Positions 1-12,195 of a stretch of DNA of 12,499 bases are shown here, piece after piece. A program made the translations under genes and the position numbers. How positions within the stretch are numbered: the stretch's first letter is position 1; each line of letters starts with the position of its first letter. Origin of the DNA: Gemmatimonadota bacterium (GTDB taxonomy: Bacteria; GCA-2686955). The notes below the pieces were generated by a model. The model did not search any database. It was not told the DNA's origin and saw nothing but the letters and a program-made list of their open reading frames with translations. Location of the stretch: contig NYZA01000202.1 in the NCBI GenBank assembly GCA_002686955.1, forward strand, positions 1-12,499, read 5' to 3'.

Positions 1-116
1 AAACGGAGGGAAGTGCTGCCAGGGTGCGGAGATGCGCCGCCACAGCAGAAAGTTGGTGAGATATGCGGGCTAGCGCAACGAGAAGCGGCTGCATCTCACG
101 ATACAGCCGCTCCCTG

Positions 117-587: not shown

Positions 588-849
588 GATTCTGTCCCCG
601 TTGAAGATCCACGGTTGCACCCGCTCAGGGCCGTTGGACGGTCCATCGGCCTGGGCCTGAACGGATCTACGAAATCTGAATGCGCCCCCAGGGTAAGCCC
701 GATCTCTCGCTCTCGCCACCCCGTAATTCATGTTTTTCGGATGTGTGGACGAAAAAACCGGCAAGACACGGGCCTGAAATGAGCGGGTCCAAACCCCTAT
801 TGCGTGAGGCGACGACCTAACCGATGGTGGAGCAGATTCGGAGGCCCCA

Positions 850-1893
850 GTGATTGCCACGACCTACCGCACGCGGAGCGAGCTGATCGATCGTTTTCAG
901 GCCGCGCTCTCGCGCGACGAATTGCGCTGCATGCTGCACGGGCGGCGGCGAGACGAGAGGGGAGCGTTCGCTCGTTCGGTCGTGGAGGGCCTCGAGAACG
1001 ATCCGCCGAAACTGGATTGCCGCTACCTCTACGACGCCAGGGGCAGTGCGCTCTTCGAACAGATCACGGCGCAACCCGAATACTATCCGACCCGCACCGA
1101 GGCGGCGATCTTGAGCCGTCATGCCCGTGACATCATCGAGGCTACCGGCGCGGCGCGATTCATGGAGTTGGGCTCCGGGAGCGCCGAGAAAACGGGACGT
1201 TTGCTGGATGCCGCCGCCGCGCGCGGCGGCGAGCTCACCTACGTGCCCGTAGACGTTAGTGAAGAGGCCTTGCACGCCGCGGGGGCGGCGGTGGCGCGGG
1301 AGCATAGAAATGCCCGTGTCATCGCGTTGAACGCAACCTATGAAGAGGCCTTCCCGCTTTTCGAAGATCTGTCACCGCTGCTCTGCCTTTTTCTCGGCGG
1401 CACCGTCGGCAACTTCCCGCCACCCCAGGCAGACCTGTTTTGGACCGAAGTGACGTACGCACTCCATCCGAGAGACCATTTTCTCGTCGGCGTTGATCTC
1501 GTAAAGAACCGCGACAGGTTGGAGCAGGCCTACAACGACGCCGCCGGTGTCACCGCGGAGTTTACGAAGAATCTCTTCGTCCGAATGAACCGAGAGCTCG
1601 GATCGGGTGTCGACGTGAGGGGATTGCGACACGAAGCGCGTTTCGATGAAGCCCAAGAACAGATAGAGATCCACGCCCATTTCACCGCGGAACAATCGAT
1701 CGGAGTGAAGTCCTTGGAGTGGGAGCGTTGCTTCGAAGCGGGCAGCCGTGTACTCGTCGAGATCTCGAGGAAATTCCGTCTCGACCGTTTCCCCAACTAT
1801 CTCGCCGGTTTCGGACTGCAAACTCGAGCGATCTACACCGACGCGCATCATGATTTCGCGCTGCTTCTGCTTCAGCGCGGGAATCGAGCATGA
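850..1893 (+). CDS. egtD: EgtD, L-histidine N-alpha-methyltransferase (ergothioneine biosynthesis)
   Basis: A 347-residue SAM-dependent enzyme of the EgtD family (about 320 residues in mycobacteria). It methylates the histidine alpha-amino group three times to give hercynine (trimethylhistidine). Visible signatures are the family block LYDARGSALFEQITAQPEYYPTR-type (near residues 59-80), the SAM loop ELGSGSAEKT, the GGTVGN motif with Asn188, and AYNDAAG with Tyr228. The segment VEISRKFR carries Glu304 and Ser306, matching the Glu282/Ser284 pair that binds the substrate in the mycobacterial enzyme. It starts with GTG at 850 behind GGAG at 840-843. Its stop overlaps the start of the next gene (ATGA, 1890-1893), indicating translational coupling. 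There is no DinB/EgtB domain nearby, so the sulfur step must be done by another enzyme, most simply the coupled fusion downstream. Cytoplasmic. Confidence 0.95.
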   Translation: MIATTYRTRSELIDRFQAALSRDELRCMLHGRRRDERGAFARSVVEGLENDPPKLDCRYLYDARGSALFEQITAQPEYYPTRTEAAILSRHARDIIEATGAARFMELGSGSAEKTGRLLDAAAARGGELTYVPVDVSEEALHAAGAAVAREHRNARVIALNATYEEAFPLFEDLSPLLCLFLGGTVGNFPPPQADLFWTEVTYALHPRDHFLVGVDLVKNRDRLEQAYNDAAGVTAEFTKNLFVRMNRELGSGVDVRGLRHEARFDEAQEQIEIHAHFTAEQSIGVKSLEWERCFEAGSRVLVEISRKFRLDRFPNYLAGFGLQTRAIYTDAHHDFALLLLQRGNRA

Positions 1894-4800
1894 ACGGACG
1901 GGGGGAAGTCTGCGACGGGATTTGCGGGATCTGTCCGGCGGGTTGCTGGGTCCGCGTCGAGATGCGGGAGGGGCGCATGATCGAGGTGGCCCCGAATCCT
2001 GATCATCCCCTGGGAATGATCTGCACGATCGGGCGACACTCTCCGCGGGTGGTTCACGATCCGGATCGGCTCCGAACGCCCCTCCGCCGCACCGGCCCCA
2101 AGGGAAGCCACCGATTCGCGCCGATCTCTTGGGACGACGCTTTTGCCGAGATCGTGGAGCGTCTCGAGACCATCAAGTCGGAGCACGGTGCCGAAGCCTG
2201 CGGGATCTACACGGGGCGCGGCAGCTTCGATATGGCGCTCTGCGACCTCTTTCAGCCCGCGGGAGTCGAAGTGTCGTCGGCTTCGAGCATTCTCTTCCCT
2301 TTCGGATCGCCGAACTCGCTGGGAGTAGGCGCGCTCTGCTACGTCTCCTTCGCGATGATCGCGCCTCATACTACGATGGGCGAAATGTTCGTTACGATGG
2401 ACACCGACGTGGATCAGGCGGAGCTGATCGTGGTTTGGGGGGCGAATCCCGCCACCGACTCGCCACCCTCGGGCCACCAGCGGATCCTACGCGCGAGAGA
2501 GAGGGGCGCCGAGGTGGTGGTCATCGATCCGCGGCGCAACCGGACCGCGCGAGAGTCCGGCGCTCAGTGGATTCCGCTCCGCCCCGGGACCGATGGCGCA
2601 CTCGCGCTCGGCCTGATCGAAGTACTCATTGAAGAGGAGCTGATCGAGGAAGAGTTCGTCGAAAACTGGACGGTCGGGTACGAAGGACTGACGACGCTCG
2701 CACAGCACTATCGGGCGGAGGTCGTCGAAGGGGTCACCGGAGTGCCCGCCGAAACGGTGCGCTCGCTGGCCCGTCGGATCGCCGGGGCGCGTGGGGCCGC
2801 CCCCGTGATGTATACGGGGCTCGAGTATTCCGACAGCGGTGTGCAAGCGATCCGAGCTGTATTCACCTTGTGGGCTTTGGCGGGCCAACTCGACGTCCCG
2901 GGTGGACTGCTCTTTCGCATGAAAGAGAATCGGTTTCCTCAGAACCGTCGTCACCTCGTTCCGAATCCCGACATGCGCAAGGCTCTCGGAAGAGATCGCT
3001 TTCCCGTCTACAGCCAGTATCGGGGCGAGTCCCATGCGATCGCATTGCCCGATTCTGTCCTCCGGGGAGAACCGTACCGCCTCCGCGCACTGCTGATTCT
3101 GGGCGGCTCGATCATCACCGCCTGGCCCAACCCCTCGCTCTGGCGCGAGACCCTCGGCGCGCTCGATTTCCTCGTCACCATCGACCGCTACCACACCGCC
3201 GATTCCGCCTATGCCGACATCGTTCTACCGGCAACAACAGGGTACGAGATGACGTCGTACTTACGTTACGGGCCGCTCTTCAAGATCCGGGAGCGCCTGG
3301 TGACGCCAGAAGGAGACGCACGCAGCGATTTCTTGATCCTGACGGAGCTGGCGCAACGATTGGGCTTCGGCGATCGCTATCCGCAAAGCGAAGAGGAGCT
3401 GCTAAAGTGGGCGCTCGAGGGAACCGGCTTCACGGTGGAAGAGGTTCGCGAGCGCGGAGGCTCGGTGCAGATTCCGACGGTGATGATGGAGTACCGCAAG
3501 TGGGAAAAAGGGCGGCTGCGGGCCGACGGTCACCCCGGATTCGACACACCGAGCGGCAAGTTCGAGATCGCCTCGTCCCTTCTGGAAGAGCACGGATACG
3601 ATCCCCTGCCTGTCTATACCGAGCCGGCGGAGGGACCGCTGTCCCGTCCGGATTTGGCCGAACGCTATCCACTTGTCTTCAACTCAGGCGCGAGGAATCG
3701 TTACGATTTCCGCAGTCAACATCATGGTGTCGAAGGCCTGCGGGAGCGGCTTCCCGAGCCGACGGTGATCGTGAACGATCTCGACGCCGCGGCACGTGAA
3801 ATCGAGGATGGTGATGCTGTCTGGGTAGAGACGGCGCGCGGCCGGGCGCATTTCCGAGCAAGAGTGACGCCTGAGATCGTGCGCGGCGCGGTCGACGCCG
3901 GTATGGGCGGCGGAGGCCCGCTGGGCTCGAAGGCGTGGCGTAAGTGCAACGTGAACGATCTCACGGATCTCGAGCATTTCGATCCGATCTCTGGCTTTCC
4001 GGTGTACAAGACCTTGCTTTGCGAAGTGGGTCTCGTAGAGGCGGTGAGATCGGAGGGGAAGATGTGGGGGACGGACACTCGGAAGGATGAAACGAAGGCC
4101 GGGCTCGACGCATGGCACGCAACCGCGCCCAACCCGCCGAAACGTATTGTGTATCTGGACAACAACGCCACGACTTCGGTCGATGCCGAAGTGCTCGGAG
4201 CGATGCTTCCCCTCTTGCGCGAAGAGTGTGGCAATCCTTCGAGCATTCATTCCATCGGAAGTGGGGCCCGATCGAAGGTGGAAGACGCGCGCCGTAAGAT
4301 CGCCCAGGTCCTCAACTGCACCGCGCGGCGGATCGTGTTCACGGGAAGCGGCACCGAAGCGAACAACCTGGCGATCGAAGGGACGATTCGGGCGCTGGGG
4401 CGGCCAGCGCATATCGTCACGAGTGCCGTGGAGCACCCCGCGGTACTGAACCCTTGCCGCGCGCTCGAAGCGCAGGGCCACGCACTGACGGTCTTGCCGG
4501 TCGATCGCGAAGGTCGTGTCGATCCGGCGGAGCTCGCGGATGCCTTCAGAGACGACACCGCGCTAGTCAGCATCATGCTGGCCAACAACGAGACCGGCAC
4601 GATCGAGCCGATCGCGGAGTGCGTTGCTCTTGCGCGGGAGCGAGGCATCCTCTTCCACACCGACGCGGTTCAGGCCCTGGGCAAGATCCCTCTCGATGTG
4701 CGGGAGCTGGGCGTCGATCTTCTGAGCGTCTCTTCGCACAAGATCAACGGCCCGAAGGGGGTGGGGGCACTCTACCGGCGAAAAGGTGTCGCGATCGACC

Positions 4801-5303
4801 CCTTGGTCCACGGAGGCGGCCAGGAATCTGGATTGCGCTCCGGCACCGAAAACGTTCCCGGCATCGTGGGCTTTGGAAAGGCGTGCGAAGTCGCTCTGCG
4901 CCGGCTCAACGATGGTGAAATGGGCCGTGTGGGGAAGCTTCGAGACCATCTCGAAGCCGGCATCGCCGAACTCGCCACGAAGGCGATCCGCAACGGCAGC
5001 AGGTGCCACTGCCTGCCCAACACCCTGAATACCACCCTCCCGGGCGTACGTGGCGAATCGCTGGTGCTCCACCTCGATCGATGTGGGGTGGCGTTCTCCT
5101 CCGGATCCGCCTGCAAATCGGGCAACCCGGATCCCTCCCACGCACTGCTCGCGATGGGGCTATCGGAAGAAGACGCCCACTGCGCTCTTCGCTTCTCGCT
5201 CGGAGTGGGGACCTCTCGCGAAGATGTGGACTACACGCTGGAGAGCCTGGGACGCGTGCTTCGCGACACTTTTGCGGCGGTGCGTTTCGTGGGGTGTCGC
5301 TGA
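1890..5303 (+). CDS. Metallopterin-dependent ergothioneine synthase (molybdo/tungstopterin oxidoreductase fused to cysteine desulfurase)
   Basis: A 1137-residue two-module enzyme. Residues 1 to about 735 are a DMSO-reductase-family metallopterin enzyme. It has a [4Fe-4S] motif C12-x2-C15-x3-C19-x25-C45, a likely Mo/W ligand Cys150 (in GALCYVS after FGSPNS), the pterin motif WGANP at 183-187, and a C-terminal dinucleotide-binding domain from about residue 593. Residues 751-1137 are a NifS/IscS-type desulfurase with the start KRIVYLDNNATT, PLP lysine Lys951 (SSHK) and persulfide cysteine Cys1075 (SSGSACKSG). Both active sites look complete and the frame is continuous. This architecture, next to egtD, matches the ergothioneine synthase described from Caldithrix abyssi. 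There the N-module is related to tungsten acetylene hydratase and the C-module draws sulfur from cysteine to thiolate trimethylhistidine at imidazole C2. No twin-arginine signal, so cytoplasmic. The function is inferred from architecture and context; metal identity cannot be read from sequence. Confidence 0.9.
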   Translation: MNGRGEVCDGICGICPAGCWVRVEMREGRMIEVAPNPDHPLGMICTIGRHSPRVVHDPDRLRTPLRRTGPKGSHRFAPISWDDAFAEIVERLETIKSEHGAEACGIYTGRGSFDMALCDLFQPAGVEVSSASSILFPFGSPNSLGVGALCYVSFAMIAPHTTMGEMFVTMDTDVDQAELIVVWGANPATDSPPSGHQRILRARERGAEVVVIDPRRNRTARESGAQWIPLRPGTDGALALGLIEVLIEEELIEEEFVENWTVGYEGLTTLAQHYRAEVVEGVTGVPAETVRSLARRIAGARGAAPVMYTGLEYSDSGVQAIRAVFTLWALAGQLDVPGGLLFRMKENRFPQNRRHLVPNPDMRKALGRDRFPVYSQYRGESHAIALPDSVLRGEPYRLRALLILGGSIITAWPNPSLWRETLGALDFLVTIDRYHTADSAYADIVLPATTGYEMTSYLRYGPLFKIRERLVTPEGDARSDFLILTELAQRLGFGDRYPQSEEELLKWALEGTGFTVEEVRERGGSVQIPTVMMEYRKWEKGRLRADGHPGFDTPSGKFEIASSLLEEHGYDPLPVYTEPAEGPLSRPDLAERYPLVFNSGARNRYDFRSQHHGVEGLRERLPEPTVIVNDLDAAAREIEDGDAVWVETARGRAHFRARVTPEIVRGAVDAGMGGGGPLGSKAWRKCNVNDLTDLEHFDPISGFPVYKTLLCEVGLVEAVRSEGKMWGTDTRKDETKAGLDAWHATAPNPPKRIVYLDNNATTSVDAEVLGAMLPLLREECGNPSSIHSIGSGARSKVEDARRKIAQVLNCTARRIVFTGSGTEANNLAIEGTIRALGRPAHIVTSAVEHPAVLNPCRALEAQGHALTVLPVDREGRVDPAELADAFRDDTALVSIMLANNETGTIEPIAECVALARERGILFHTDAVQALGKIPLDVRELGVDLLSVSSHKINGPKGVGALYRRKGVAIDPLVHGGGQESGLRSGTENVPGIVGFGKACEVALRRLNDGEMGRVGKLRDHLEAGIAELATKAIRNGSRCHCLPNTLNTTLPGVRGESLVLHLDRCGVAFSSGSACKSGNPDPSHALLAMGLSEEDAHCALRFSLGVGTSREDVDYTLESLGRVLRDTFAAVRFVGCR

Positions 5304-6502: not shown

Positions 6503-7000
6503 ATGAAAAGAACAGCAATCGATCCGGATCTCTTCGACGCCCGCGGTCCACAGGTCCGTTCTTTCGTCAAGACCACGACGATCGACGCGCCGCCGGAGAA
6601 GGTCTACGAAATCTGGACCGATGCCGCGGCATTCGTGGCGGCCTATGCATCACCGAATGTCGATCTCAGAGCCGAGATCGACCTTGCGATCGGCGGGAGA
6701 TATGAATGGCTGTGGGACGGTGTGACCGGAAGCAACGGCTGCCAGATCCTCAGCTACATTCCGAATCGCATGATCAGCTTCAGCTGGAACGCCCCGCCCA
6801 GCCAGCCCGAGAGCCGCGCCAAGCGCACTTGGGTGGTCGTGGAATTCGAGAGAAGCAGGGAAGGCGGCACGCATCTCACGCTGACACATCTCGGTTTCGG
6901 TACCGCCCCGCACTGGCAAGAGACCTTCGAGTACTTCTCCGCGGCTTGGCTGCATGTGCTCGAACAGTTCAAGAGGGCGCTGGAAGGTGGGGGCGAGTGA
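6503..7000 (+). CDS. AHSA1/SRPBCC (START-like) domain protein
   Basis: A 165-residue protein beginning 6 nt after the acyl-CoA dehydrogenase stop, with AAGGTAAGGG overlapping that stop as ribosome-binding site. The order of features is that of the AHSA1-like branch of the SRPBCC fold. First comes a beta strand and VKTTTIDAPPEKVYEIWTD (near residues 21-39), then GGRYEWLWDG, a central strand MISFSWNAP, WVVVEFER, and THLTLTHLGFG. A final amphipathic helix carries WLHVLEQFKRALEG. Family members form a hydrophobic pocket for small ligands and usually have no catalytic centre that can be read from sequence. Tight spacing suggests co-transcription with the upstream genes. Its ligand is unknown. Confidence 0.85.
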   Translation: MKRTAIDPDLFDARGPQVRSFVKTTTIDAPPEKVYEIWTDAAAFVAAYASPNVDLRAEIDLAIGGRYEWLWDGVTGSNGCQILSYIPNRMISFSWNAPPSQPESRAKRTWVVVEFERSREGGTHLTLTHLGFGTAPHWQETFEYFSAAWLHVLEQFKRALEGGGE

Positions 7001-7043
7001 CGGAATCACGATTTCCGGAGTTGAAGAAACAGGCGTCGGATTG

Positions 7044-7133
7044 ATGGTCCGAGCGCTTCTCTCCGCGCTGATGCCGGGCGCGCTCGCGGACGCCGAAGCG
7101 CTCGATCTTGCGAACTGGCATTGGCCTAGTCAC
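7044..7133 (+). pseudogene. Possible 5' end of a gene cut by the insertion sequence
   Basis: An ATG at 7044 opens a frame of about 30 residues (MVRALLSALMPGALADAEAL onward, then WHWPSH) that runs straight into the left end of the IS element and stays open into the transposase. The composition is protein-like, but no family is recognised and the ribosome-binding site is weak. A second tiny frame (GTG 6997 to stop 7045) overlaps the AHSA1 stop and touches this ATG. Either could be the remnant of a gene that followed the AHSA1 gene. Equally, this may be ordinary intergenic DNA. Confidence 0.2.
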
Positions 7134-7143
7134 TATGTAACGA
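7134..7143 (+). repeat. Left subterminal inverted repeat of the IS
   Basis: TATGTAACGA is the reverse complement of 8673-8682. The next two bases (TC) match the right copy (CC) with one difference. It lies 83 nt before the transposase start. Confidence 0.75.
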
Positions 7144-7226
7144 TCGACTCCGAGCGCAAGCTCGTGGACTACGCTACGGTTAGAGAACCGTTGCGCGCAG
7201 GGCCACCATACGAAAGGAGCCGGTCC

Positions 7227-8355
7227 ATGTCGCAGCATATCCGCTTTGTTGGCCTTGATGTTCACTCTGATGCGATCGCGATAGCAATTGCCGATCCAGG
7301 CGATCCTGGCGATCCAGTGAAGAGCGTCGCGCAGATTCCAAATGACGAGGCGTTGATCAGGAAGTGGATGAAGCGCCTGGGGACGACGCACGATCTTCGG
7401 GTCTGCTACGAGGCTGGCCCGGGCGGCTTTGTTCTGTATTGGCAGCTGACGCGGCTGGGGGTTCCTTGCACGGTGATCGCCCCTACTTTGATACCGAGGA
7501 CGCCCTGGTGATCGGCGCAAGACAGATCGCCGGGATGCCATGATGCTGGCAGATGCTTTACGGTCGAACTCGTTGACACAGTGCTGGATTCCGACAGCGG
7601 AGGAGGAAGCGCTGCGAGATCTGGTTCGCGCCCGTGAGGCGGCAGTCCGCGATCACACGCGTGCACGGCACCGTCTGACCAAGTTCCTACTTCGCCAAGG
7701 ACGGCGCTGCCCCCAGAGCGCTCGCAAGTGGACGACGGGCTGGTGGGCTTGGCTACGTCAACTGAACTTCGAGTATGTCGGGCACACGGAGACCTTCTTG
7801 GACTACGTGCATGAAGTGGAGCATGCTGCTGAACGAATCAAGCGTCTGGAAAGCGCCATCAAGTCGGCCATTGAGCAGGGTCGCGAAGAGATCAAGGAAC
7901 TCGTGGCGGGTTTGTCGAGCCTGCGAGGCGTAGGCCTCATCACCGCGGTGACCTTTGTTGCCGAAGTGGGGACTTTCGAACGATTCGAACACCCGCAGGA
8001 TCTGATGGGGTACGTCGGCGTGATCCCGAGCGAGCACTCCAGCGGCAACCAGATCAAACGAGGCGGAATCACGAAGACCGGCAACGCTCACATTCGGCGC
8101 GTCATCGGGGAGGCAGCCTGGACCTATCGCCATCGGCCAGCGGTGTACGGCGCACTCAAGAGGCGCCAACAGGGCCTCTCCGAGGAGGTCAAGGCAATCG
8201 CATGGCGAGCTCAACACCGCCTCTATCGTCGATACAGGGTGCTCAGCGAAAGGGGCAAGCCGCACCAGGTCGTGGTGACCGCCGTGGGCCGAGAACTACT
8301 GGCCTTCGCTTGGGAGATCGGACACCAAGTCTACAAGGAACAAAGGGCCGCCTGA
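7227..8355 (+). pseudogene. IS110/IS1111-family transposase, broken by a one-base insertion
   Basis: The first part (7227-7511, 94 codons) has the DEDD RuvC-like start FVGLDVHSD with Asp11, and CYEAG with Glu62. It ends early at TGA 7509-7511. Removing one C from the CCC run at 7503-7505 restores a continuous frame through RTPGDRRKTDRRDAMMLAD (third-site aspartates Asp100 and Asp103). This continues into the second part, open from 7540 and ending at 8355. The second part carries the coiled-coil middle and the C-terminal Tnp_2 domain (LRGVGLITAVTFVAEVG, then PSEHSSGNQIKRGGITKTGN with the serine region of the family). The repaired protein would be 375 residues, normal for the family. The start at 7227 has GAAAGGAG upstream. 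The family cuts and joins DNA guided by an element-encoded RNA. A programmed frameshift is possible but is not the norm here; a disabling mutation or a sequencing error is more likely. Confidence 0.88.
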
Positions 8356-8689: not shown

Positions 8690-9966
8690 ATGAGCGATCT
8701 GAGGGAGGCCCGGATCGCGTGCCGGGCTTTGCGCGAGGCCGCTCCCGATCTGCCGCTCTTCGTCTCGCTGACCTTCGAGCGCAAACGACGGGGCTTTTTC
8801 ACCGTCATGGGCGATCCCCTGGTCCCCTCGCTGCTCGAGCTCGCCCGCCAGGGGGCCGATGCGGTCGCGCTCGCGCGGCTGGTCGACGGGCTGCCACACT
8901 ATGCCGCCCAGTCCACCGCGCTGGCCCCGGCCGAGGTCCCCAAGGCCGTCGCCGATCGCTACCGGCTCTATCTGGTGCTCGGAAACTCGCGAAAGCCGGT
9001 CATCACGGGCACCTTCGTTCGTGACGGCTTCGCGCCGATGCAAGCCATGTTGGCGGCGGTTCGAGGTGGGGAGCAGCAGCTCCGCGACCGGCCCCTGGCC
9101 ATCTTCGACTGCTGCCCCAGCCCACCGCTGAAGTGGAGCGACCTGACCTGCCAGGCGCTGATCGACTGCGCCCGAAGCGGCGTGCCCGCAGAGCTCGTGA
9201 GCATGCCGCTCACCGGCGCCACCGCGCCTGTCACCCTGCGCGAGGCGGTGGTCCAGCATGCGGCCGAGAACCTCTCCGGAGTGGTCATCCACCAGCTCGC
9301 GAGCCGGGGCGCCCCGATCGTGTACGGCGGCTCGCCCTCCGCCTTCGACATGCGGCGCGGCACCACGCCGATGGGCGCGATCGAGACCATGATGATCGAC
9401 TCGGCCTATGCGCAGGTCGGCAAGCATCTGGGGCTGCCGACCCATGCGTACATGGGCCTTTCCGACGCCAAATGCCCGGACTACCAGGCCGGGCTCGAGT
9501 CGGGCATCGGCGCGGTGCTGGCCGCGCTCAGCGGCATCAACGTCGTTTCCGGTTCGGGCATGCTCGATTTCGAGATGTGCCAGTCGCTGGAAAAGGTGTT
9601 GCTGGACCACGATGCCTTGGGCATGGCGCACCGCCTGATCCGGGGAATCGAGCGGCGTGAGGGGGACGCGCTGACCCTGATCAGCGAGCTGGTGAATCGG
9701 GGGACTCCCTTCTCTCCCACGACCACACCCGTCGCAACTGGCGGGACGAGCTCGGTGTCGCCTCGCCCCTGATCGATCGCGACACTTACGGAGATTGGGA
9801 GGCCAAGAGAGCTCGATGGGCCCACACCCGCGCCGCCGACGAGATCGCCCGCCGCCTAGAGAAATACGAGGTTCCGCCGCTCGCGCCCGAGGTGGGCGCC
9901 GCCCTCGACGAGATCATGCTCGACGAGCTGAAACGACACGGAATGAGCGAGCTGCCCTCCGGCTGA
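8690..9966 (+). pseudogene. Chimeric, frameshifted methyltransferase: homocysteine-methyltransferase fragment joined to MttB-family (trimethylamine/betaine:corrinoid) domain
   Basis: The open frame 8690-9772 starts inside a domain: MSDLREARIACRALREA and RRGFFTVMGDPLVPSLL, then GADAV, are mid-barrel segments of homocysteine S-methyltransferases (normally preceded by Glu-Thr). At about residue 57 the sequence switches to an MttB-family barrel (ALARLVDGLPHY, then YRLYLVLGNSRKPVITGTF, GATAPVTLREAV, APIVYGGSPSAFDMR, SDAKCPDYQAGLE). MttB-family proteins are near 480-490 residues, so both partners are truncated at the join. At the GGGGG run 9699-9703 one base is missing. Adding a G restores DSLLSHDHTRRNWRDELG and the rest of the MttB C-terminus to the TGA at 9964-9966. 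No in-frame amber codon is present, so this is not a pyrrolysine-type MttB. MttB relatives demethylate quaternary amines onto a corrinoid protein; this copy is almost surely inactive. It begins right beside the IS right end, which may have removed the 5' part. Confidence 0.8.
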
Positions 9967-10097: not shown

Positions 10098-10123
10098 CTA
10101 GTGTCCCGTTCGGATAGTCCGTT
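10098..10123 (+). repeat. Left terminal inverted repeat of the MITE
   Basis: CTAGTGTCCCGTTCGGATAG followed by TCCGTT. It pairs with 10237-10262 with one mismatch (C versus T, sixth base from the inner end). Confidence 0.85.
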
Positions 10124-10236
10124 ATACGATTCTCGATGGATCGGCGTCGCAATCAAGGCGCAACGACGAAGGCGTAGCAGCGCTACGTCGAGGAGGAAGC
10201 AACGCCGAGTGCGGCGTCGAGACGCGGTAGGTGCGC

Positions 10237-10262
10237 AACGAACTATCCGAACGGGACACTAG
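10237..10262 (-). repeat. Right terminal inverted repeat of the MITE
   Basis: Reverse complement of the left repeat except for one base. It ends in ACACTAG at 10262. Confidence 0.85.
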
Positions 10263-10788: not shown

Positions 10789-11280
10789 ATGGCACAAACG
10801 AGCAAGAGTCTCGCATTCGCCGCCACCCGCTGCAGAGAGCTCGAGCAGCTGCTGGTGCCCGACTTTTTCCGGGCGCTGGCCGATGCGAATCGGCTGGGGA
10901 TCCTCGGCCGGCTCGCCTCCAGCTCCGAGGGCGAGAGCGTGGGCTCCATCGCCCAGTGCTGCCCGGTGGACCTCTCCGTGGTCTCGCGGCATCTGGGCAC
11001 CCTGCGACAAGCCGGGATCGTGGGCTGCGAGAAGCGAGGCAAGCAGGTGATCTACCGGGTGCGAACTCGGTGGCTCGCAGAGACGCTGCGCGGAATGGCG
11101 GACGCGATCGAGGCCTGCTGCCCGGGCGAAGACGCCACCTGCACCTTGCCGGTGAGCGCCGGAGCCGGGGCCACCGGCTCGGACGAAGCCGGTGGCAAGG
11201 AAGGAACCCCCGCTGGGTCCGATACTCACGAGATCAACCAACAAGAAAGGACGCCAAGAGGCGTCGCCCCGAAGGAGTAG
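10789..11280 (+). CDS. arsR: ArsR/SmtB-family metalloregulator
   Basis: A 163-residue protein with a winged-helix DNA-binding domain in residues 20-95 (FFRALADANRLGILGRL, recognition helix around DLSVVSRHLGTLRQAG, wing GKQVIYRV). Two cysteine clusters are seen. Cys57-Cys58 lies just before the recognition helix, near the CxC site of E. coli ArsR. Cys110, Cys111 and Cys118 (CCPGEDATC) resemble the C-terminal CC-x5-C arsenic site of Acidithiobacillus ferrooxidans ArsR. Family members leave DNA when As(III) or a methylated arsenical binds. Residues from about 122 to 163 form a Gly/Ala/Thr-rich tail with no known role. Sitting 3 nt before arsM, it likely represses the operon through the palindrome in its own promoter. 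Confidence 0.93.
   Translation: MAQTSKSLAFAATRCRELEQLLVPDFFRALADANRLGILGRLASSSEGESVGSIAQCCPVDLSVVSRHLGTLRQAGIVGCEKRGKQVIYRVRTRWLAETLRGMADAIEACCPGEDATCTLPVSAGAGATGSDEAGGKEGTPAGSDTHEINQQERTPRGVAPKE
11170..11196 (+). other. Stable hairpin inside the 3' part of arsR
   Basis: Perfect 9-bp stem GCCACCGGC (11170-11178) / GCCGGTGGC (11188-11196) with a 9-nt loop, in the segment encoding the low-complexity ArsR tail. A second perfect stem, GACGCC-AAGA-GGCGTC, lies at 11250-11265, five bases before the arsM ribosome-binding site. They could tune arsM translation or RNA stability, or simply reflect GC-rich coding sequence. Confidence 0.4.
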
Positions 11281-11283
11281 ACG

Positions 11284-12195
11284 ATGTCAGACGCAAGGAA
11301 GATCCGGGAAGAGGTATCCACCGCCTACGCGAAGGCTGTCACCCGGGGCAGCAGCTGCTGCGATTCGGGTGTGACCGCGGAGACGGTCTCCGACCAGGTG
11401 GACGCCGGGGCGCAGGCAGACGACTCTCGCACCCCGCGCCGCACAAAGGGTGTCGCGGCGAGCTTCGCCGGCTACACGGAGGAGGAGCTGGCCGAGCTGC
11501 CCGAGGGTGCGGTGGAGAACTCCTTCGGTTGTGGCAACCCCCTCGCTTTCAGCGAGGTGCGGGAGGGCGACACGGTCGTGGACCTGGGCTCGGGCGCCGG
11601 GATCGACCTCCTGATCGCCGCCCGGGCGGTCGGGCCCGAAGGGCGCGTCATCGGCGTCGACATGACCGACGAGATGATCACCAAGGCCCGCGCACACGTC
11701 GCCGAGGCGGGCGTCACGAATGTCGAGGTGCGCAAGGGCCTCATCGAGGAGCTCCCGATCGAGAGCGGCACAGCGGACTGGGTCATCTCGAACTGCGTCA
11801 TCAACCTCTCCCCCGAGAAGGAGCACGTCTTCGCCGAGATCGCCCGGGTGCTCAAGCCTGGCGGACGCATGCAGGTGTCCGACATCGTCGTGGAGGGCCT
11901 GCCCGACTGGATGCGCGAGAGCGCAGGGCTCTATTCCGCCTGCATCGGCGGGGCGGTCTCCGAGAAGGAGTACCTGGCGGGCCTCTCGTCCGCGGGCCTC
12001 GTCGAGGTGGAAGTGAAAGACCGCCTCGTCTACGAGGCGAGCCAGATCGCCGGCATCGTCGAGTCTGAGCTGCCCGACGCGCTCGAGAAGCTCACGAAGG
12101 ACGGCGTGCCGCTCGGCCGGGAACAGCTGCGGACCCTCGCGGGATCGGTGGAGGGCAAGGTAATGAGCCTCAAGATCGCCGCGCGCAAAGCGTAG
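11284..12195 (+). CDS. arsM: ArsM, arsenite S-adenosylmethionine methyltransferase
   Basis: A 303-residue class I SAM methyltransferase that adds methyl groups to As(III), giving mono-, di- and trimethylated arsenicals. The SAM loop VVDLGSGAGID is at residues 98-108, with acidic VIGVDMTDEM after it. Three cysteines of the ArsM As-binding set are present: Cys83 (FGCGNP), Cys171 (ISNCVINL) and Cys220 (SACIGGA), at the spacing of Cys72/Cys174/Cys224 in the algal enzyme. An extra N-terminal Cys25-Cys26 pair (GSSCCDSG) is also common in bacterial ArsM. The ribosome-binding site GAAGGAG lies at 11271-11277, three nt separate it from arsR, and the two are surely one operon. No arsenite pump, arsenate reductase or arsenical-oxidising enzyme is in view. 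Cytoplasmic; the product is volatile or exported. The 3' end overlaps a convergent gene by 26 nt. Confidence 0.95.
   Translation: MSDARKIREEVSTAYAKAVTRGSSCCDSGVTAETVSDQVDAGAQADDSRTPRRTKGVAASFAGYTEEELAELPEGAVENSFGCGNPLAFSEVREGDTVVDLGSGAGIDLLIAARAVGPEGRVIGVDMTDEMITKARAHVAEAGVTNVEVRKGLIEELPIESGTADWVISNCVINLSPEKEHVFAEIARVLKPGGRMQVSDIVVEGLPDWMRESAGLYSACIGGAVSEKEYLAGLSSAGLVEVEVKDRLVYEASQIAGIVESELPDALEKLTKDGVPLGREQLRTLAGSVEGKVMSLKIAARKA

Follow-up and report, generated by a model that had tools for sequence, protein, structure and literature searches.

A probable two-gene operon for O2-independent ergothioneine synthesis in a bacterium whose genome encodes a cytochrome c oxidase

The closest described system to the locus analysed here is the metallopterin-dependent ergothioneine synthase (MES) of Caldithrix abyssi (CaMES, 1136 aa), characterised by Beliaeva and Seebeck; the family was described in 2022 (PMC9516567). 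CaMES is a two-module polypeptide co-encoded with egtD. Its predicted FeS ligands are C14, C17, C21 and C48, and mutation of C153, K952, C1074 or C1135 nearly abolished ergothioneine, the C153S variant being nearly inactive and the C1135S variant inactive (PMC9516567). The pathway has been presented as an anaerobic, possibly ancient route to ergothioneine and is stated to be encoded exclusively in anaerobes (PMC9516567). It shares its substrate, N-alpha-trimethylhistidine (TMH), and its product with the EgtB and EanB routes, whereas the enzymes are unrelated. Acetylene hydratase (PDB 2e7z) resembles the N-terminal module (N-module) of MES in having Fe4S4 and bis-MGD with a Cys ligand, but it is without a desulfurase domain, belongs to another clade and catalyses another reaction.

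We analysed a 12,499-nt stretch of DNA (the window) from the draft genome G000 of an uncultured bacterium, and find it highly probable that two of its genes form an operon for O2-independent ergothioneine synthesis in a host with a cytochrome c oxidase (Table 1; genomes, contigs and loci are given by our G, C and L handles where needed). The operon adds a member to the family described in 2022, and what is new here is the oxygen point, the pathway itself having been described then. An earlier note on this DNA had expected that the finding would widen a rare pathway; this did not hold, the pathway being already known as scattered and listed in 55 genomes (PMC9516567).

Table 1. Positions of the features discussed; locations are in the window unless a locus is named.
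Feature	Location	Strand	Evidence
Dispersed repeat	1..90	.	also on other G000 contigs, one of them C120 with the cytochrome oxidase genes
GGAGG, likely ribosome-binding site of egtD, 5 nt ahead of the GTG start	840..844	+	sequence
egtD, L-histidine N-alpha-methyltransferase, 347 aa	850..1893	+	TIGR03438, PF10017, M. smegmatis EgtD match
ATGA overlap, MES start / egtD stop	1890..1893	+	sequence
Metallopterin-dependent ergothioneine synthase (MES), 1137-aa fusion, predicted	1890..5303	+	domains, residues, tree
Fe4S4 domain, cysteines C12, C15, C19, C45	1914..2057	+	PF04879, 23.3 bits vs 22.7
Predicted bis-MGD metallopterin module: Molybdopterin residues 60-489, Molydop_binding 601-708	2067..4013	+	PF00384, 124 bits; PF01568, 69.7 bits
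C150 codon, counterpart of CaMES metal ligand C153	2337..2339	+	residue comparison
Cysteine desulfurase module, Aminotran_5, NifS/IscS type	4149..5234	+	PF00266, 263.7 bits
K951 codon, PLP-binding lysine	4740..4742	+	residue comparison
C1075 codon, persulfide cysteine of desulfurase	5112..5114	+	residue comparison
C1136 codon, C-terminal relay cysteine	5295..5297	+	residue comparison
Unfused metallopterin proteins of G049	L150:6517-8730 and L151:6120-8447	-	N-module identity

The first gene, in which the earlier note had seen EgtD motifs, was confirmed as egtD: it scores 305.0 bits against TIGR03438, the NCBI EgtD equivalog model (cut-off 290.9 bits), and 311 bits against PF10017, and it is the single PF10017 gene of the host genome. 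The match to M. smegmatis EgtD (PDB 4uy7/4pim; E 1e-60) spans nearly the entire length. Among the histidine-binding positions of the EgtD structures that were checked, Y39, Y56, G161, N166, Y206, T213, E282 and S284 of the M. smegmatis enzyme are kept, and the sole change is I in place of M252. The window protein also differs from its M. smegmatis counterpart in falling in a divergent EgtD subclade with those of L006, G025 and G007.

The second gene starts with an ATG that overlaps the stop codon of egtD, and the overlap makes translational coupling of the two likely. Its description in the earlier note, a 4Fe-4S metallopterin enzyme joined to a complete cysteine desulfurase, agrees with the Pfam domains found in a single uninterrupted frame in the order Fe4S4, Molybdopterin, Molydop_binding and Aminotran_5, the last complete at residues 754-1115. 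The closest solved relative of the N-module is acetylene hydratase 2e7z (E 9e-67). The desulfurase module reaches 476.8 bits against TIGR03402, under the equivalog cut-off of 530.75. The layout is that of the Caldithrix abyssi enzyme, as the same note had claimed, with nearly equal length and with the FeS, metal-ligand, PLP and relay residues in common: by comparison with the residue numbering given in PMC9516567, the window MES carries counterparts of every residue reported essential in CaMES (C12, C15, C19, C45, C150, K951, C1075 and C1136), as well as C1098, the counterpart of the less important CaMES C1097. The Fe4S4 cysteines are also kept in the 19 other MES, bar one cut by a contig end. 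We considered two of the fetched proteins as CaMES itself: that of G059 was rejected, its length and C-terminal cysteine positions differing from the published numbering, and for L228 the identity is not claimed, since length and 8/8 published cysteine positions agree but the K952 position does not. An AlphaFold model of the full MES was built on a shallow alignment, and its N-module is weak (mean pLDDT 65.4) and unreliable. A promoter and terminator scan of the window gave nothing above shuffles, and Rfam gave no match within it.

The characterised enzyme of C. abyssi (PMC9516567) allows a prediction of the cofactor, the route of the sulfur and the product. EgtD would convert histidine and three SAM to TMH. 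L-cysteine would serve the C-terminal desulfurase of MES as sulfur source, with a persulfide forming on C1075. C1136 would then pass the sulfur on to the bis-MGD metal centre, of which C150 would be the ligand, and the metal centre would put it on C2 of the TMH imidazole. We infer that the two genes would suffice to make ergothioneine from histidine, SAM and cysteine; this statement stays conditional because MoaA was not found in the incomplete genome and the pathway is known here from sequence.

To place the enzyme, related fusions were collected. A scan of genome contigs gave 9 others and whole-genome searches gave more, for 19 other loci in total and, with the window, 20 from bacteria and archaea; of 386 bacterial genomes sampled, 11, counting that of the window, have a match that covers most of the fusion. 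A maximum-likelihood tree made from N-module sequences, CaMES not among them, unites the 20 fusions in a single clade (100/99) that excludes acetylene hydratase (2e7z) and thiosulfate reductase (2vpw). The window MES is sister to that of G007 (97/91), in a group with L006 (a Desulfuromonadales metagenome-assembled genome), G025, G230 and G198. An assignment of the window N-module as acetylene hydratase was rejected, as it is joined to a desulfurase domain and lies outside the hydratase clade. In genome G049, two proteins have the N-module but lack a desulfurase domain; their identity to the window N-module is 45 and 48%, and the tree attaches them by a long branch to the MES clade (100/100). 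The egtD of G049 is on a different contig. These unfused proteins may resemble an unfused ancestor of MES. At L003:5956-9339, the MES ORF of the nDJH6bin12 MAG is too short to include the C-terminal relay cysteine, yet the DNA match runs on past its end, which suggests a frameshift (contig coverage 2.5).

The two genes also travel together. egtD adjoins MES in the window and in 13/19 other MES loci; chance is thus excluded, because related fusions occur at all 19 and 13 of these have egtD alongside. The order is egtD upstream in the window, L006, G025, G007, G230 and G059, and downstream in the remaining adjacent loci, and the NTGA overlap between the genes recurs in L006, G025, G007 and G059. 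The egtD of G007 is split over two contig ends, and in the genomes of L005 and L010 egtD is on another contig than MES. In the egtD tree, the window, L006, G025 and G007 group at 100/100, in agreement with the MES tree. G230, in contrast, is in the window's MES group yet has an egtD from a different egtD group, so partners are sometimes swapped. The hosts in which rpoB was found lie far apart in the rpoB tree, which makes horizontal transfer of the pair probable. In distant hosts the two genes have probably been passed on together, and the co-inherited pair offers a compact candidate system of two genes for making ergothioneine. The acyl-CoA dehydrogenase, AHSA1 and MTTB genes downstream in the window were left out of the operon, because MES had none of them as a neighbour in the other loci searched. 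Directly upstream of egtD-MES in G059 lies a betaine-type ABC transporter (OpuAC-permease fusion and an ATPase-like ORF; L157:10716-12973, minus strand), which resembles the EgtUV ergothioneine importer.

We then looked in the host genome (4.28 Mb, 270 contigs, 84.5% complete) for the other ergothioneine routes. No EgtB was found above cut-off in this 84.5% complete genome: the best match, 48.2 bits against a cut-off of 360, covers only the C-terminal part of the model (positions 291-413), and sub-cut-off matches also occur in four control genomes. Likewise, no EanB-like multi-rhodanese protein was detected among its contigs: of the three rhodanese matches inspected, one belongs to a ThiS-ThiF-rhodanese protein, another to a short frame of 209 aa and the third to a frame interrupted by stops. 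The genome check for a separate EgtB or EanB pathway was therefore negative at this completeness, and the earlier note's central reading, egtD with an O2-independent metallopterin-dependent synthase using cysteine as sulfur donor, is supported by the residues, by the grouping of the N-module with the desulfurase fusions and by the lack of a detected competing route. For the cofactor, MoaC and MoeA are adjacent on contig C93, and no MoaA was detected at 84.5% genome completeness. Either the assembly or the explanation has a gap at this point; moaA may be missing from the incomplete assembly. A second, divergent COX1-family protein (53.8 bits) is encoded a few kb from moaC-moeA on the same contig (L154:6553-7935, minus strand).

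The 76.7-kb contig C120 of the host genome carries coxB, coxA, coxC, CtaA and CtaB, with coxA scoring 449.6 bits and containing the motif GHPEVY. A COX1 search over 12 other MES genomes found a COX1/COX2 set in G102 (the genome of L006), a haem-copper quinol-type oxidase with cytochrome bd in G098 (L002), and weaker COX1-family matches in G101, G103 and G106. Since the window host and two further MES genomes encode terminal oxidases, the published restriction of MES to anaerobes appears doubtful at the genome level, with the provisos that all three are draft, metagenome-derived genomes, binning having been checked only for the window's genome, and that oxidase genes are no proof of aerobic growth. 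Judged by the host's cytochrome c oxidase, the organism in which the pathway operates is probably facultative or oxygen-tolerant. We put even chances on a broader proposal, in which MES works in O2-respiring bacteria, some of them facultative aerobes that obtain ergothioneine solely through the O2-independent enzyme. The anaerobe restriction becomes testable with an intact operon whose genome also encodes cytochrome c oxidase and with the two other genomes, and the oxygen point bears on why the third sulfur route persists.

Contrary to the proposal of the earlier note, the host is not deltaproteobacterium-like. In a coarse rpoB tree of 20 rows, the host groups with G001 (85% identical) beside two Krumholzibacteria, the latter weakly (88/86), inside a 100/100 set with Latescibacterota, Zixibacteria, G007 and G059, and not near the deltaproteobacterial row. 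The window system thus differs from CaMES in a host near Krumholzibacteria, Latescibacteria and Zixibacteria that has cytochrome c oxidase, and in a function that is predicted. Neither egtD nor MES was found in G001, the sister-family genome, which counts against the main reading. The host rpoB is itself split on contig C126 (L195), with the 3' part at the start of the contig (11-2989) and the 5' part at its end (15465-16157), both on the plus strand; the contig looks like a circularised or misassembled one.

The oxygen argument depends on operon and oxidase being in one organism, and a misbinned window contig is the likeliest of the alternatives, though we consider it improbable. The contig is just 12.5 kb long, its tetranucleotide correlation of 0.704 is at the low end of the genome's own contigs (0.634-0.881), and the missing MoaA would fit such an error. 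Against this, the codon usage of egtD and MES fits G000 best of seven sets, and the repeat at the contig end recurs in five other G000 contigs, one of which is C120, and is missing from every locus fetched from other genomes; codon usage and this genome-specific repeat tie the contig to G000.

The two other alternatives concern function. It is quite unlikely that a MES-fold enzyme here thiolates another methylated histidine or heterocycle, or uses selenium, to give an ergothioneine analogue: the unfused G049 sisters are evidence of an N-module family that extends beyond MES, but the window MES overlaps a bona fide egtD with an intact histidine site, is co-inherited with it and lies within the fusion clade with all essential residues kept, and 4/4 MES homologues tested made ergothioneine (PMC9516567). 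An ordinary DMSO-reductase-family oxidoreductase fused by accident to an FeS-repairing IscS, with no role in ergothioneine, would suit the best solved relatives of the N-module, which are acetylene hydratase, thiosulfate reductase and formate dehydrogenases. That the fusion is conserved across 20 bacterial and archaeal loci, mostly with egtD adjacent, that its clade is fully supported, and that the relay Cys is present in every MES whose end is not truncated or frameshifted leave this the least credible explanation, to which we give hardly any weight. We thus retain ergothioneine synthesis by the egtD-MES pair as the preferred reading.

The remainder of the window holds several further features. 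At 6954-8355 is an IS110-family transposase that looks broken, its N- and C-terminal parts apparently in different frames. The adjoining ORF of the MTTB (trimethylamine methyltransferase) family, at 8690-9772, matches model positions 107-409 of 500 only and is possibly truncated. A 26-nt inverted repeat, 96% complementary with arms 113 nt apart, spans 10098-10262 and was not seen in other fetched loci by an exact 20-nt search. An ArsR-type regulator followed by the arsenite methyltransferase ArsM occupies 10789-12195, and the GC3 of ArsM, 0.90, is above the 5-95% range of G000.
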